In this document: positions 27,982 to 33,910 of the stretch, piece after piece
Position numbering within the stretch: the stretch's first letter is position 1
Layout: each line of letters starts with the position of its first letter
Source of the DNA: Oscillospiraceae bacterium
Lineage (GTDB): Bacteria > Bacillota > Clostridia > Oscillospirales > Oscillospiraceae
Reading direction: 5' to 3'
DNA length: 38,361 bases
NCBI GenBank assembly: GCA_902767915.1
Contig: CACXJE010000029.1
Coordinates: 1-38,361 of the forward strand
Translations under genes and position numbers: made by a program
Notes under the pieces: generated by a model
Told to the model about the DNA's origin: nothing
The model's input: only the letters and a program-made list of their open reading frames with translations
Database searches by the model: none

Positions 27982-28010
27982 ATTTTATAACAGAAATCAT
28001 ACGACGTCAA
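27982..28010 (-). promoter_or_regulatory. Promoter of the small damaged gene and lipoprotein 26837-27670
   Basis: On the minus strand TTGACG (28005-28010), a 17-base spacer and TAAAAT (27982-27987), in an AT-rich stretch. It overlaps the far 3' end of the reading frame at 28007. The 95 bases from here to the small ORF hold no other gene. Confidence 0.75.
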
Positions 28011-28312
28011 GCCATATATTTGTATAATTTATATTTAACTCTATAAATATACAAATCTTTGTCAGAAGAACTCGGATCGTCAAGTCTTCCGCAAGGGTTG
28101 ACCGGATCCCGCCCCCGGAGGCGGCCCGGGGCAAAGCAAAACGGCACGGAATTGGAATCGTCCTTCCAGTTCCGTGCCGTTTTGCGGTTATAGGCCTTCG
28201 GGTTTTCCGGCCTGCGGGTCACCGGGTTCAGGGCCCAGGTGCCGCGGCGGGTCTTGTCCAGCTCCCGCCTCTTTTTTTTCGAGAGCTTCTCATAGGGAAT
28301 GAATTTTTCCAC
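28007..28312 (-). CDS. Small basic protein with an intrinsic terminator inside its reading frame; candidate nonstop-message ribosome-rescue factor
   Basis: GTG at 28312 has AAAGGAG six bases upstream and lies 65 bases after nifJ. The first ~52 residues are strongly basic and look like a conserved core: FIPYEKLSKKKRRELDK, TRRGTWALNPVTRRPENPKA, YNRKTARNWKDD. At codons 43-60 the DNA forms a 16-bp perfect stem with a T-rich end (28131-28185), the usual terminator style of this genome. A transcript ending there would carry about 59-60 codons without a stop. The open frame beyond it (stop at 28007) has a quite different, AT-rich composition and may never be transcribed. Escherichia coli ArfA and Bacillus subtilis BrfA are made from similar stopless mRNAs. 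The function is inference. Confidence 0.6.
   Translation of the reverse strand: MEKFIPYEKLSKKKRRELDKTRRGTWALNPVTRRPENPKAYNRKTARNWKDDSNSVPFCFAPGRLRGRDPVNPCGRLDDPSSSDKDLYIYRVKYKLYKYMA
28131..28185 (-). terminator. Intrinsic terminator lying inside the small basic gene
   Basis: GCAAAACGGCACGGAA (28136-28151) and TTCCGTGCCGTTTTGC (28170-28185) pair perfectly. TGGAA and TTCCA inside the loop extend the hairpin. On the minus strand TTTTGCTTTG follows. The A4/T4 style matches the terminators at 11489, 14691 and 26748. Confidence 0.8.
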
Positions 28313-28336
28313 AGGCTTCTCCTTTCGTTCTTCTTT

Positions 28337-28366
28337 GGGGGATCGCAGGTTTTCCTGCGATCCCCC
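28337..28366. repeat. Hairpin between nifJ and the small basic gene
   Basis: GGGGGATCGCAGG and CCTGCGATCCCCC form a 13-bp perfect stem on a four-base loop. It lacks a T tract on the minus strand. It may protect the nifJ mRNA 3' end or partly uncouple the downstream gene. Confidence 0.7.
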
Positions 28367-28377
28367 GATGATAATTC

Positions 28378-31300
28378 TCAGCCCTCCGCCAGCTTCTTGT
28401 ACTTGCTGTACTTTTCGGCGCTGAAGGCCTTTGCCTTCTCCAGCAGGGCGTCGGCGTCCGCCGGGAAGGTCCGGCGCAGGGAGGCGTAACGGACCTCGCC
28501 GTTGAGGAAGTCCTCCAGGGGCACCGTGGGCTCCTTGCTGTCCAGCACGAAGGGGTTCTTGCCGGCGGCCCGCAGCTCGGGGCTGTAGCGGTACAGGAAC
28601 CAGTAGCCGCTGTTCACGGCCAGCTTGGCCTCCTCGGTGGAGTAGCCCATGCCCTTGACGATGCCGTGGTTGATGCAGGGGGCGTAGGCAATGATCAGGG
28701 AGGGGCCCTTGTGGGCAACGGCTTCCTTGATGGCCTTGATGGCCTGGTTGGGGTTGGCGCCCAGGGCGATGGAGGCCACGTAGACGTCGCCGTATTCGGC
28801 TGCCAGCAGGCCCAGGTCCTTCTTGACGGTCCGCTTGCCGGCTGCGGCAAACTGGGCCACCGCGCCGATGGGCGTGGCCTTGGAGGCCTGGCCGCCGGTG
28901 TTGGAGTAGACCTCGGTGTCCACAACCAGGATGTTCACGTCGATGCCGGAGGCCAGGACGTGGTCCAGGCCGCCGTAGCCGATGTCGTAGGCCCAGCCGT
29001 CGCCGCCGTACATCCACATGCTCTTGCGGACGAAGTGCTCGCTGTTTTCCTTCATGTAGTCCACAGCGTCGCCGGTGTCGGGAGTCTTTTCCAGAGCGCA
29101 GAGCACGGCGTCGGCCAGCTCACGGGCCTTTTCGTCGTCCTCATAGCCGGCGAGCCAGGCTTCCAGAGCCGCCTTCAGGGTCTCGTCCTTGGCGTCGGCC
29201 AGATACGCCTCCGCCTTGGTCCGCAGGGCCAGCCGCTGCTGCTGGACGGAGAGCACCATGCCCAGGCTGTACTCGGCGTTGTTCTCAAACAGGGAGTTGG
29301 AGATTGCGGGACCGTGGCCGCGGCTGTTGGTGGCGTAGGGGTAGCTGGGGATGGAGAAGCCCCAGGCCTGGGTGCAGCCGGTGGCGTTGGCGATGATCAT
29401 CCGGTCGCCGTAGAGCTGGGTCAGCAGCTTCATGTAGGCGGTCTCGCCGCAGCCGGCGCAGGCGCCGGAGAACTCCAGCAGGGGCTGCTCGAACTGGCTG
29501 CCCTTGGCGGAGAACTTATCCATGGGGTTCTTCTTCTCAGACAGGCCCATGCTGTATTCCCAGTTGGCCGCCTCGGGCAGCTGGCTGGCGATGGGCTTCA
29601 TGGCCAGGGCCTTGTCCTTGGCCAGACAGGCGGTGACGCAGGTGCCGCAGCCGGTGCAGTCCAGCGGATCCACCTGGATGCGGTAGCGCAGGCCCTCAAA
29701 GCCCTTGCCCTTGGCCTCGTTGGTGACGTAGGATTCGGGGGCATTCTTGACCTCCTCCTCGTTCAGCAGGAAGGGACGGATGGCGGCATGGGGGCAGTAG
29801 AAGGAGCACATGTTGCAGCCGATGCACTTGGCGGCGTCCCACTCGGGCACGAAGGCCGCGAAGCCCCGCTTCTCATACTTGGCGGTGCCGATGGGCACGG
29901 TGCCGTCGGCCATGTCCTTCCAGGCGCTGACCGGGAGCTTGTCGCCCCGCTGGTCGTTGACCATGCGCATGATGGTCTTGATGTAGTCGGGCTGGTTCTC
30001 GTTGACGGTCTTCACCTCGTCGGGCAGCTCTGCCCAGGCGGGATCCACGGGAACCTCCACGATGCCGTCCAGGCCCCGGTCCACAGCGGTGTAGTTCATG
30101 TTCAGAACCTTCTCGCCCTTGCGGCCGTAGGTCTTGGTGATGGCGTCCTTCATGTAGCGGACCGCGTCGTCGATGGGCAGCACGCCGGAGAGCTTGAAGA
30201 AGGCGGACTGCAGCACGGTGTTGGTCCGGTTGCCCAGGCCGATCTCCGCGGCAATGTCGGTGGCGTCGATGGTGTAGAACTTGATGTGGCGCTGGGCCAG
30301 GATCCGCTTCAGCTTGTTGGGCAGGTTTTTGATCAGCTCGTCACCCTTCCACACCGTGTTCAGCAGGAAGGTGCCGTTGGGCTTGATCTCCTCCACGATG
30401 TCGTACTTCTTCACGTAGCTCTCGTTGTGGCAGGCCACAAAGTCCGCCATGGTGACGTAGTAGGTGGAGAGGATGGGGTTGTGGCCGAAGCGCAGGTGGC
30501 TCTTGGTGACGCCGCCGGACTTCTTGGTGTCGTACTCAAAGTAGGCCTGCACGTACTGATCGGTGTTGTCGCCGATGATCTTGATGGAGTTCTTGTTGGC
30601 GCCCACGGTGCCGTCGGAGCCCAGACCCCAGAACTTGCAGGAGATGGTCTTCTCGTCGGCGGTAACGATGTTCTCGCCCACGGTCAGAGACCGGTGGGTC
30701 AGATCGTCGTCGATGCCCACGGTGAAGTGATCCTTCCGGTCACCCTCCATGTTGTCGAAGACAGCCTTCATCATGGCGGGGGTGGTGTCCTTGGAGGACA
30801 GGCCGTAGCGGCCGCCCAGCAGGACGGGACGGTTGGCCCGGTTGAACAGCACGCCGGCCACGTCCTCATACAGAGGCTCGCCGTTGGCGCCGGCTTCCTT
30901 GGTGCGGTCCAGAACCGTCAGGACCTTGCAGGTCTCGGGAATGGCCTTCAGCAGATGCGCGGCGGAGAAGGGGCGATACAGATGGACCTGGATGAAGCCC
31001 ACCTTCCGGCCCTGGGCGTTCAGGTAGGTCACCACTTCCTTCAGACAGTCGGAAACGGAGCCCATGGCCACGATGACGTATTCCGCGTCGGGCACGCCGT
31101 AGTAGTTGAACAGCTGATAGTTGCGGCCCGTCAGCTTGTTCATCTTCTCCATGTATTCCTCCACGATGGCCGGCGTGGCGTCGTAGAAGGGGTTCACGGC
31201 CTCGCGGCACTGGAAGGCGGTGTCGGGGTTCTGAACGGTGGAGCGCATCACGGGGCGCTCGCTGTTCAGACTGCGCTTGCGGAAACGCTTCAGCGCCTCC

Positions 31301-31884
31301 TGATCCACCATCTTGGCCAGGTCGTCAAAGTCCAGAACGTCGATCTTCTGCAGCTCGTGGGAGGTGCGGAAGCCATCGAAGAAATGCATGAAGGGCACGC
31401 TGGACTTGATGGCGGACAGATGGGAAACCGCGGCAAGATCCATGCACTCCTGCACGCTGGAGGAGGCCATCTGGGCAAAGCCGGTCTGGCGGCAGGCCAT
31501 GACGTCGGACTGATCGCCGAAGATGGAGAAGAAGCTGGTGCCCACGGTACGGGCGGCCACATGGATCACGCCGGGCAGCAACTGGCCGGCGATCCGGTAC
31601 AGGGGCGGCACCATCAGCATCAGGCCCTGGGAGGCGGTGTAGCTGGTAGACAGAGCGCCGCATTCCAGCGAGCCGTGCATGGCGCCGCAGGCGCCGGCCT
31701 CACTCTGCATCTCCACCAGCTTGACGGGATGGCCGAACATGTTCTTCATGCCGTTGGCCGCCCAGACGTCCACGTGCTCCGCCATGGGGCTGGAGGGTGT
31801 GATTGGGTAGATCGTTGCTACCTCGGTAAACGCATAGCTTGCGTACGCGGCGGCTTCATTGCCGTCCATGGTTTTCTTTTTCAT
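28378..31884 (-). CDS. nifJ: Pyruvate:ferredoxin (flavodoxin) oxidoreductase
   Basis: This single-chain PFOR (1168 aa) converts pyruvate and CoA into acetyl-CoA and CO2 while reducing ferredoxin. The order is typical: N-terminal pyruvate-binding domain (YPITPSSPMAEHVD), CoA and gamma domains with the EKR region (GTVGANKNSIKIIG), two [4Fe-4S] motifs (CIGCNMCSFYCP, CTGCGTCVTACLAKD), a third cluster Cys pair (CAGCGETAY) and the thiamine diphosphate site (GGDGWAYDIGYGG, TEVYSNTGGQASKATP). ATG at 31884 gives the conserved MKKKTMDGNEAAAYASYAF; codons further upstream are open but lack a usable site. A near-consensus promoter lies 75-105 bases upstream. Reduced ferredoxin from this enzyme is the natural substrate of the Rnf complex at 216-5195. 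Confidence 0.97.
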   Translation of the reverse strand: MKKKTMDGNEAAAYASYAFTEVATIYPITPSSPMAEHVDVWAANGMKNMFGHPVKLVEMQSEAGACGAMHGSLECGALSTSYTASQGLMLMVPPLYRIAGQLLPGVIHVAARTVGTSFFSIFGDQSDVMACRQTGFAQMASSSVQECMDLAAVSHLSAIKSSVPFMHFFDGFRTSHELQKIDVLDFDDLAKMVDQEALKRFRKRSLNSERPVMRSTVQNPDTAFQCREAVNPFYDATPAIVEEYMEKMNKLTGRNYQLFNYYGVPDAEYVIVAMGSVSDCLKEVVTYLNAQGRKVGFIQVHLYRPFSAAHLLKAIPETCKVLTVLDRTKEAGANGEPLYEDVAGVLFNRANRPVLLGGRYGLSSKDTTPAMMKAVFDNMEGDRKDHFTVGIDDDLTHRSLTVGENIVTADEKTISCKFWGLGSDGTVGANKNSIKIIGDNTDQYVQAYFEYDTKKSGGVTKSHLRFGHNPILSTYYVTMADFVACHNESYVKKYDIVEEIKPNGTFLLNTVWKGDELIKNLPNKLKRILAQRHIKFYTIDATDIAAEIGLGNRTNTVLQSAFFKLSGVLPIDDAVRYMKDAITKTYGRKGEKVLNMNYTAVDRGLDGIVEVPVDPAWAELPDEVKTVNENQPDYIKTIMRMVNDQRGDKLPVSAWKDMADGTVPIGTAKYEKRGFAAFVPEWDAAKCIGCNMCSFYCPHAAIRPFLLNEEEVKNAPESYVTNEAKGKGFEGLRYRIQVDPLDCTGCGTCVTACLAKDKALAMKPIASQLPEAANWEYSMGLSEKKNPMDKFSAKGSQFEQPLLEFSGACAGCGETAYMKLLTQLYGDRMIIANATGCTQAWGFSIPSYPYATNSRGHGPAISNSLFENNAEYSLGMVLSVQQQRLALRTKAEAYLADAKDETLKAALEAWLAGYEDDEKARELADAVLCALEKTPDTGDAVDYMKENSEHFVRKSMWMYGGDGWAYDIGYGGLDHVLASGIDVNILVVDTEVYSNTGGQASKATPIGAVAQFAAAGKRTVKKDLGLLAAEYGDVYVASIALGANPNQAIKAIKEAVAHKGPSLIIAYAPCINHGIVKGMGYSTEEAKLAVNSGYWFLYRYSPELRAAGKNPFVLDSKEPTVPLEDFLNGEVRYASLRRTFPADADALLEKAKAFSAEKYSKYKKLAEG

Positions 31885-31960
31885 AAGATCCCCGCTCATT
31901 CCTTTCAAATAAACTAATGAAACTTTACCTCGTTAACAGAGCACATGTCTCCATTTCGTT

Positions 31961-32060: not shown

Positions 32061-32312
32061 ACCGTCCTGCGGAAAAAGACACCGCCAGACGGAGAACCGA
32101 TCTTTCTAAAACCGCCCTACGGAAAAAGCCACCGTCTGACGGAAAAAGCACCGCCAGACGGGAAGAAGCGCACCGCTTGACGAAAAACCGCCTGACGGAA
32201 AAGCCGCCGCCAGACGGAGAACCGATCTTCCTAAAACCGCCCTACGGAAAAAGCCGCCGTCTGACGGGAAAAGCACCGCCAGACGAAAAAGAAAAAAGAA
32301 TCGCCTGTCGGA
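32061..32312. repeat. Imperfect short-unit repeat array before tRNA-Val
   Basis: A 79-bp unit at 32082-32160 recurs at 32207-32285 with only three mismatches. Within and around it, shorter units of the form CCGNCNGACGGAAAAAG recur about every 20-24 bases. Several are near-palindromic, for example CCGTCTGACGG. Open frames here on both strands are low-complexity products of the repeat, not genes. The array ends just before the tRNA promoter. Confidence 0.85.
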
Positions 32313-32321
32313 AAATAATTC

Positions 32322-32350
32322 TTGACAAATAAGCACTCTTCGATTATAAT
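32322..32350 (+). promoter_or_regulatory. Consensus promoter of tRNA-Val
   Basis: TTGACA (32322-32327), a 17-base spacer and TATAAT (32345-32350): a perfect sigma-A consensus, as expected for a stable RNA gene. Confidence 0.93.
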
Positions 32351-32363
32351 AACGCATGCGTCC

Positions 32364-32439
32364 GGACGATTAGCTCAGCTGGTAGAGCATCCGCTTGACG
32401 TGCGGAAGGTCGCAGGTTCGAGTCCTACATCGTCCACCA
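32364..32439 (+). tRNA. tRNA-Val (anticodon GAC)
   Basis: A complete cloverleaf of 76 nt including encoded CCA. The acceptor GGACGAT (32364-32370) pairs with ATCGTCC (32429-32435). The D arm contains AGCTCAGCTGGTAGAGC, the anticodon stem TCCGC/GCGGA encloses the loop TTGACGT with anticodon GAC, and the T arm contains GGTTCGAGTCC. It has its own promoter and terminator. Accessory DNA begins downstream, so its 3' end is a likely integration site. Confidence 0.96.
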
Positions 32440-32443
32440 CAAT

Positions 32444-32469
32444 CCCGGCTTCTTCGGAAGCCGGGTTTT
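32444..32469 (+). terminator. Terminator of tRNA-Val
   Basis: CCCGGCTTC (32444-32452), loop TTCG, GAAGCCGGG (32457-32465), then TTTT. A strong UUCG-capped intrinsic terminator. Confidence 0.92.
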
Positions 32470-32505
32470 CCTCTTTTATGGGTGAAAAACTGGCGTTTTG
32501 CTTGC

Positions 32506-32542
32506 TTTTCAGCGTGTTTTTCAACTTTTCAGTGTATTTTTC
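32506..32542. repeat. 17-bp direct repeats, candidate integrase arm-type sites
   Basis: TTTTCAGCGTGTTTTTC (32506-32522) and TTTTCAGTGTATTTTTC (32526-32542) differ at two positions and are spaced by one helical-turn multiple (20 bp). They lie between the presumed attachment site and int. Confidence 0.5.
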
Positions 32543-32579
32543 TGTGAGGTTCGCCGGCCCTTGACAACTTGCTTTTTGG

Positions 32580-32602
32580 GGTTGACCTTCACGGTTGACC
32601 TT
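32580..32602. repeat. 10-bp direct repeats near int
   Basis: GGTTGACCTT occurs at 32580-32589 and 32593-32602, 13 bp apart. Like the pair at 32506 it could be bound by the integrase N-terminal domain or by the excisionase. Confidence 0.45.
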
Positions 32603-32674
32603 TACAGGGTAACACGAGGCGGTAAAACCCGTGATTTTACGGCAGTTCTGGGCACTCCCGTTTTCCCTTTATTT

Positions 32675-33910
32675 TCAGAAGCTGACTGCGCTCGGAAGCC
32701 CCGGCTGAGCGTAAACATTCTGGATAAAACTCTCCAGCCTGTTCGCACTGTTGATCTGCATCTGGCGGGATACATGACCGTATACCTCCAGCGTAAACGC
32801 CGCGGTGGCATGTCCCAGATTCTCCTGAAGCGTCTTGATGTCCACCCCGCTCTCGATGCACGCCATAGCGTAGGTGTGCCGAAGATCATGCACCCTGGCA
32901 TTTGGCGCACCGATCTTCTTTGCCAGCCGTTTAAAGCAGTCGTAAACGGTTCTGCTGGAGAGATAGCCGCCGGTGGGGTTTGTAAACACCATTCCGCAGT
33001 TCTGCCAGGACAGGCCCTGCTCCTTTCGAAGACATTCCTGCCGCTGCCATTGGAGGGCAAACAGCTTGGCAACGCTGGGAGCCATGGGGATGTACCGCTT
33101 CTTTCCGTTTTTAGGCGGAACAATCAAATACTCTCCGCCGGTTTTGTGCTCCCGCTGGAGCTGCTGCTTTACCAAAATGGTCTGATGCGCAAAGTCCACA
33201 CAGCTCCAGGGAAGTCCAAGAAGCTCGCCCTCCCGCATCCCGGTGAACAGTGCGATCTGATACAGGTACTCATGGGGATGCCCCGGAAGCAGCTGCAGAA
33301 GCGCTTTCATCTGATCGGCACTGAGGGGGTTGATTTCCTTCTTCACCACACGAGGCAGCACGCAACTGTCGGTTGGATTGGCCTTCAGCAGGCCATTCTT
33401 AACTGCCTGCTGGAGCGCCTTGTGAAGGATTCCGTGGACATTCTTTACCGACTTGGCACAGATCGGCTTTCGGTCATCCACCGTGGGCTGATGAAGCTCA
33501 TTGTAAAACTTCTGGATCATGTGGCCGGTGAGTTTTTCCAGCTTCACAGTGCCGAGATGCGGCACGATATAAAGCTGGATACTCTCGCGATAGAGCTGTG
33601 CAGTGGAAGGCTTGACTCCAAACAGGTAATCCTTCTGCCACTCTTCCAGCCATTGGGAAAGCAGCATATTACTGGGTTCCACATGGGTCCCCTTGTCGAT
33701 TTCCGTGGTAATCTCGCGCAGTTTCTGCGCAACCTCCTTCTGCGTTTTGCCGTTCAGCGTGTGCTGGATCTGCTTGCCGGTAACAGGATCATAGCCCATA
33801 GAGTATCGGGCTTCCCAGTAGGTATAGGTCTTCCCGTTGCGCTTTTTTACCGTTTTTTTACGAATTGTCCCCGCACCCTGTGCGGAGCGCTTGGTTTTGC
33901 TATATGGCAT
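32675..33910 (-). CDS. Tyrosine-type site-specific integrase
   Basis: This 411-aa integrase would insert and excise the element. The N-terminus (residues 1-60) is an AP2-like or arm-binding domain with a basic start. A SAM-like core-binding domain follows (about 78-175), then the catalytic domain with R226 (TGMREGEL), a Lys region near 268-272, H341 and R344 (HDLRHTYA), H367 (LGHA) and the nucleophile Y377 (EVYGH). All key residues are present, so it is probably active. ATG at 33910 has AAAGGAGG four bases upstream. It follows the excisionase gene and points toward tRNA-Val. Confidence 0.96.
   Translation of the reverse strand: MPYSKTKRSAQGAGTIRKKTVKKRNGKTYTYWEARYSMGYDPVTGKQIQHTLNGKTQKEVAQKLREITTEIDKGTHVEPSNMLLSQWLEEWQKDYLFGVKPSTAQLYRESIQLYIVPHLGTVKLEKLTGHMIQKFYNELHQPTVDDRKPICAKSVKNVHGILHKALQQAVKNGLLKANPTDSCVLPRVVKKEINPLSADQMKALLQLLPGHPHEYLYQIALFTGMREGELLGLPWSCVDFAHQTILVKQQLQREHKTGGEYLIVPPKNGKKRYIPMAPSVAKLFALQWQRQECLRKEQGLSWQNCGMVFTNPTGGYLSSRTVYDCFKRLAKKIGAPNARVHDLRHTYAMACIESGVDIKTLQENLGHATAAFTLEVYGHVSRQMQINSANRLESFIQNVYAQPGLPSAVSF

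Follow-up and report, generated by a model that had tools for sequence, protein, structure and literature searches.

A short open frame for a basic protein, lying behind a nifJ-type gene, raises the question of how its message ends and what its product does, since a strong hairpin with a T-rich side stands inside the frame, ahead of any stop codon. The frame lies in the window, by which we mean the whole stretch of 38,361 nucleotides analysed, and its surroundings contain the following features.

28378..31908, minus strand: nifJ-type pyruvate:ferredoxin oxidoreductase, upstream of the small gene (name from the initial annotation and by look)
28337..28366, minus strand: perfect 13-bp hairpin in the gap that separates nifJ from the small gene, with an AAAA loop and no T tail (by eye)
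28319..28325, minus strand: Shine-Dalgarno site AAAGGAG, 6 bases 5' of the GTG (sequence reading)
28007..28312, minus strand: small basic-protein gene, open frame with GTG start, 101 codons then TGA (ORF translation)
28136..28185, minus strand: in-frame terminator hairpin, codons 43-59 (folding, synonymous null, covariation in homologues)
28133..28141, minus strand: T-rich run, 7 T in 9 bases, predicted transcript 3' end (sequence, fold)

The protein encoded by the GTG frame 28312..28007 on the minus strand begins VEKFIPYEKLSKKKRRELDKTRRGTWALNPVTRRPENPKAYNRKTARNWKDD..., and homologue comparison places the conserved protein in about codons 1-50 only of the frame 28007..28312. The initial annotation had described a Shine-Dalgarno site with a GTG start and a Lys/Arg-rich product over the first ~52 codons. 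Both descriptions hold: AAAGGAG (28325-28319) ends six bases before the GTG, and codons 1-52 contain 17 K/R as compared with 7 D/E. AAAGGAG-type sites also stand 5' of many of the homologues printed. The gap between nifJ and the small gene, both on the minus strand, is 65 bases. No promoter-like site was found directly 5' of the window copy (promoter score 7/12), and its transcription probably depends on nifJ, the sole likely source seen. Promoter-like sites did occur 5' of 27 of the 43 non-redundant named copies, as compared with 5 of 43 after one shuffling. The hairpin at 28337..28366 is a possible processing or stabilising element and may protect or process the nifJ message. The idea of a conserved neighbour was dropped, as the upstream ORFs differed in 20 loci inspected by eye.

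The in-frame hairpin (28185-28136) consists of 16 outer pairs without mismatch, one mismatch, five inner pairs and a six-base loop, and is the strongest structure of the folded stretch. Folding of 71 nt containing it gave an MFE of -38.9 kcal/mol (z -7.2), matched by none of 200 dinucleotide shuffles. The 66 nt with the hairpin fold at -36.8 kcal/mol, as compared with a mean of -13.4 (sd 3.0) in 2000 synonymous recodings of codons 41-62 drawn with nifJ codon usage; because none of the 2000 folds as well, coding does not explain the hairpin. A simple terminator scan of the window did not list hairpin 28185-28136, presumably because the mismatch interrupts the stem. In its longest form the stem takes up four T of the T-rich run (28141-28133), and past the stem there is only TTT, then GCCCC; the T tail of the window copy is thus moderate, not ideal. 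The first in-frame stop is the TGA at 28009-28007. The perfect 16-bp in-frame hairpin with a T-rich tail reported initially was therefore recovered, and no stop precedes it, but the distance from stem to stop, given as 120 bases, was measured as 126 nt.

The gene belongs to an unnamed Clostridia family. Searches of Pfam, NCBIfam and PHROGs found no family for the window protein over the cut-off (Pfam, scanned up to E 10, listed nothing but DUF2956 at E 0.1), the Pfam matches of divergent members all stayed below threshold, and a plasmid search with the window protein gave no match. With the genome of the window included, the protein is present in 16 of 39 near genomes and, in an order-level search, in 33 of 295 genomes, covering 14 families and 27 of 149 genera. 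A class-level draw returned it in 5 of 393 genomes, namely the window's own and four that belong to a single genus of a different order; divergent members may escape the first-look filter used in this draw. When named genome contigs were scanned with the peptide PYEKLSKK, 200 relatives came up, of which the best 80 were kept. These best 80 are mostly Oscillospiraceae, Ruminococcaceae and unplaced Clostridia assemblies, and include one labelled Lachnospiraceae as well as Caproicibacter fermentans. The columns of the search peptide (P6-K13) are conserved by construction in the named loci; among the 15 invariant columns of 35 aligned members, R23, W26, P30, R33, A40, Y41 and R43 are not. One genome (G005) has five family matches, on contigs C60, C84, C138 and C52; C138 carries two copies ~0.8 kb apart, and the C52 copy is divergent and has an ordinary stop.

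The position of the hairpin relative to the stop was compared over 113 loci, made up of the best 80 of 200 named relatives, the window and 32 loci from the order and class searches; the order search gave a locus for 30 of its 33 matching genomes, and the set does not contain L151, which runs into a contig end. By one detection rule, 94 of the 113 have a strong in-frame hairpin whose stem is followed by the stop at a distance of 7 nt or more, while the stop lies within 6 nt of the stem base in 9 and inside the chosen hairpin in 3, and 7 are without a strong hairpin. When reduced to 75 non-redundant loci (80% DNA identity), the same four classes number 62, 6, 3 and 4. Under a stricter definition, a hairpin plus tail precedes the stop in 69 of the best 80 of 200 named loci; 6 of these 80 are borderline, in 2 the first terminator comes after the stop and 3 have none. 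By comparison, 18 of 224 ordinary long ORFs in these loci hold any hairpin of this kind within their final 150 nt. In the 69 strict loci from these best 80 of 200, the hairpin starts at nt 123-138 of the frame and the stop follows the stem at 9 to over 1000 nt. No stop codon ahead of the hairpin is shared by the hairpin-bearing members; a conserved one was what the initial annotation had named as evidence against its own reading.

Individual loci illustrate how the arrangement is kept. In four loci of another order (L107-L110) the equivalent position holds stems of quite different sequence, which likewise precede any stop. In L143 the original hairpin is disrupted, and another hairpin with a T run was seen by eye in frame ahead of the stop. 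In-frame hairpins are present in L030, L065, L085 and, in weaker form, L104. In L052 and L068 a stop codon falls right at the base of the stem, in L049 one lies inside the chosen hairpin, and the messages of these three may include a stop. Several sets lie outside the 113. The loci L002-L024 are not counted there, except for the same genes returned by later searches; among them L020 is degraded and without the hairpin, L021 meets a contig end, and L024 has an ordinary stop without an in-frame terminator. The 25 viral-collection loci and the phage-record loci are likewise separate. By eye, 22 of the 25 viral-collection loci, several of them near-identical, have an in-frame hairpin before the stop, and in L159 the stop comes 4 nt past the stem.

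Covariation was assessed in 12 of 81 loci, namely L049 and 11 of the 13 that share one hairpin geometry, with L055 and L088 left out. In these 12 loci, 9 of 18 pairs have changed on both sides, in 18 such cells, and none of 500 shuffles reaches either value; sliding the pairing partner destroys the signal. The count of further pair types was not above shuffles in the same loci (213/500). Protein conservation was measured in the 62 non-redundant loci of the first class, 43 of them named and 19 from the order and class searches, both run with the whole profile. Mean pairwise identity is 60% over codons 1-24. Because the PYEKLSKK columns are conserved by construction, the 17 codons from PVTR, which lie outside the search peptide, were measured separately and gave 68%. 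Over the 12 codons after the tail, identity falls to 6.3%, as compared with 5.8% when shuffled, so that the conserved C-terminus past the hairpin that would have favoured an ordinary reading of the frame is not seen. Identity of 60-68% ahead of the hairpin and at random level past it indicates that the conserved protein ends at the terminator. Taken together, the conserved in-frame hairpin, the covarying stem and the random tail make it very probable that the message of the small gene is stopless, as it is for ArfA and BrfA, and the candidate stopless mRNA of the initial annotation gains strong support from the comparison.

A stopless message would place the gene under the control of trans-translation wherever that system is at work. 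SmpB was found in 27 of the 39 near genomes and in 11 of the 16 gene-positive relatives; the other five, which include the window's own genome, are 70-83% complete. Of 10 gene-positive genomes chosen for a tmRNA search, 9 gave a tmRNA over the cut-off and one, G017, which is 95% complete, did not. In the window's own assembly (78% complete) neither SmpB nor tmRNA was found over the cut-off. We considered and rejected a genome lacking trans-translation, as the assembly is incomplete and its relatives have both SmpB and tmRNA. With both components in the lineage, the message would be handled by trans-translation and its product tagged, as for BrfA. Two marks of tmRNA-controlled alternative rescue factors, a predicted stopless message and tmRNA with SmpB in the lineage, are present here.

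The course of events that we infer, from the transcript 3' end through tagging and ribosome binding to RF2 use, would be as follows. A message encoding a small basic protein of ~55-60 residues would end at the intrinsic terminator within the frame, ahead of any stop. With tmRNA-SmpB working, the ribosome at the message end would be rescued and the product tagged and destroyed, so that little protein would accumulate. With tmRNA-SmpB missing or overloaded, untagged protein would accumulate and free ribosomes stuck on stopless messages. Judging from the structural model and the layout of BrfA, the basic C-terminal half may lie in the empty mRNA channel, while the R-x-x-W...PVTR part, near the decoding centre, may recruit a release factor, probably RF2.

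To our knowledge, two characterised proteins have the stopless-message design, ArfA and BrfA, and both are rescue factors. By analogy with them, we think it reasonably likely that the product of the small gene is a ribosome-rescue factor; more specifically, we favour the view that it is probably a third tmRNA-controlled backup factor with a stopless message, distinct in sequence from ArfA and BrfA. The analogous rescue factor proposed initially fits in size, charge, stopless message, layout, patchy distribution and the presence of tmRNA in the lineage, while kinship in sequence with ArfA or BrfA found no support. The comparative data back the design of the message, not an activity, and no known family was matched over the cut-off; the product, a small basic protein, might accordingly bind ribosomes or RNA in a different role, such as ribosome hibernation or the regulation of translation, with a stopless message that lets tmRNA status set its level. 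Some genomes have multiple copies (up to five matches), which is odd for a backup factor, and copies with ordinary stops occur beside a relaxase gene and in phages. Against such a role stand the functions of the two proteins of the same design, together with a size, charge and layout that fit those of BrfA in the excerpted text of PMC6881298, and we regard this alternative as rather improbable.

The rescue-factor reading leads to the question of descent. BrfA (YqkK of Bacillus subtilis) resembles the family in being small, basic and Gram-positive and in having an in-frame intrinsic terminator before its stop; it is reported in a subset of Bacillaceae, whereas the present family is found in Clostridia. 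Its product has ~62 residues from 71 codons and, when made from the stopless message, is tagged by trans-translation (PMC6881298, in part). BrfA is described there as a helix at 4-17, a short helix at 21-25, a strand at 35-38, a helix at 40-47 and a basic tail. The AlphaFold model of the window protein has a helix at 12-22, an extended middle and a basic helix at 43-51 (mean pLDDT 77, pTM only 0.37), so that the order of the layout, with N-terminal helix, extended middle and basic C-terminal part, is broadly that given for BrfA in the same excerpt; a fold search with the model returned one meaningless match (E 3.8). RF2 dependence is a shown feature of BrfA, whereas for the Clostridia family we infer it. 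The window protein lacks the Lys-His pair of the basic C-terminal tail of BrfA, as do the A1 and A3 consensus sequences; a few members, for example L102, L137, L145 and L162, do have a KH pair.

The family might nevertheless be a highly divergent true homologue of BrfA, one family stretched past detection. By eye, R-G, strand and basic tail follow in the same order, and the pairwise comparison is borderline, as 34 of 1000 shuffles attain the best score and 18 of 1000 the mean score. The other comparisons point the other way: 564-565 of 2000 shuffles score as high as BrfA against the family profile, hhalign gives a probability of 0.1%, and the PDB, searched with the profile up to E 10, returned nothing, although BrfA is present there as 6szs_y. 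The single window protein gave only chance-level PDB matches (best E 0.56), and PF13025, which may or may not be the BrfA family, had no match in the window's own genome. We hold deep homology to be unlikely, and independent origin is the simpler reading of the sequence comparisons. ArfA of Escherichia coli shares with the family a stopless message under tmRNA control and a basic C-terminal part (excerpts of PMC8012679 and PMC8874680), and the arfA gene carries an RNase III site (PMC8874680, in part). It differs in that similarity in sequence is not above shuffles (135-318 of 2000 as high by profile, 181 of 1000 pairwise), and the window protein did not match the Pfam ArfA model in a scan at E up to 10. 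ArfT and ArfB are alternative rescue factors as well; our comparisons covered ArfA and BrfA by sequence and ArfB by its own GGQ motif, which the window protein does not have.

An ordinary gene could carry a terminator in frame by chance, with transcripts running on and the protein ending at the stop. The T run of the window copy is moderate, as noted, and among the 224 long control ORFs a hairpin of the stricter definition, taken as the first within 150 nt of the stop, falls inside the frame in 18; it lies after the stop in 65 and across it in 5, and 136 have none. Moreover, over the ~35-nt hairpin stretch stop codons occur in 7 of 71 loci in frame, 6 of 71 in frame +1 and 43 of 71 in frame +2. 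As frame +1 is equally stop-poor, the absence of stops was dropped as a proof in itself of a stopless message, and since stop avoidance is not frame-specific it is position, covariation and tail decay that carry the case. A chance terminator would not be expected to keep its position in dozens of non-redundant loci, with a covarying stem and an unconserved tail, and we consider it very unlikely. Although no structure in the folded stretch is stronger than the hairpin, it is scarcely credible that the hairpin is part of an RNA element and the frame incidental, given the protein identity over the PVTR stretch and the Shine-Dalgarno site 5' of the frame.

The family also has relatives with ordinary stops. 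L133, L138, L148 and L152-L156 have such stops without an in-frame terminator, L154 having a classic terminator past its stop, and in the viral collection L157, L158 and L181 have an ordinary stop without an in-frame hairpin. A phage search with the window protein gave two weak matches. Brochothrix phage A9 gp170 and two of the weakly matching genes of Bacillus phages (E 1e-3 and 4e-2) bear the annotation of normal coding genes that end in a stop. The loci concerned are as follows.

L152, 1-1671: ordinary-stop homologue adjoining a MobP3/MobL relaxase gene and a helix-turn-helix gene
L158, 3185-4487: ordinary-stop homologue on a viral-collection contig, with a helix-turn-helix gene and a downstream ORF resembling that of L152 (by eye)
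L182, 601-732: Brochothrix phage A9 gp170 (phrog_2701), ordinary stop
L192, 88-258, and L193, 115-249: weakly matching small genes in large Bacillus phages

L181, a phage-like member, matches phrog_2701 at E 0.0016. A9 gp170 and its phrog share with the Clostridia family a core around RGTWG-SPVT and SKK-xY-xRKK, but gp170 has 43 residues, is without the FIPYEKLSKK-type N-terminal part and ends at an ordinary stop. The ordinary-stop forms fit copies freed from tmRNA control, and equally other uses. As a tentative extension, Clostridia may own an independently arisen stopless-message rescue family, spread patchily over at least 14 families of one order and present in a second order. Its core is also found with an ordinary stop, next to the relaxase gene of a mobile element and in large phages of Brochothrix and Bacillus, and these would then have a rescue factor that escapes tmRNA control. 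Such copies in phages and mobile elements suggest that host and parasite may compete over the control of rescue.

BrfA is given as limited to Bacillus and ArfB as absent from Firmicutes in an excerpt of PMC8874680, and in Table 1 of PMC11633108, likewise excerpted, a survey of 2,633 Firmicutes genomes lists arfA (with BrfA counted under it) and arfB in 5 each. RQC is a further backup in Firmicutes, rqcH being listed in 2,557 of the same genomes. Apart from RQC, the Clostridia family is thus a specific candidate for what backs up tmRNA in Clostridia. Rescue systems as yet unidentified are expected (PMC6881298, in part), and in searches of open-licence papers on ribosome rescue we recognised no description of the Clostridia family. 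If this regulatory design did arise a third time, it would be a strong case of convergent evolution, and such factors can be sought on a genome scale by the signature of a terminator in frame followed by an unconserved tail.

Two observations concern the DNA upstream of nifJ. Three near-identical terminator-like hairpins stand in a row at 32132-32286 (minus strand), within repeated coding-like DNA. Beyond them, in the region 32322-33910, an ORF at 33910-32675 (minus strand) that has by look the character of a tyrosine recombinase stands beside a frame reading GRLAQLVEHPLDVRKVAGSSPTSSTT, which we take to be the usual false translation of a tRNA gene; the region looks like an element integrated at a tRNA.
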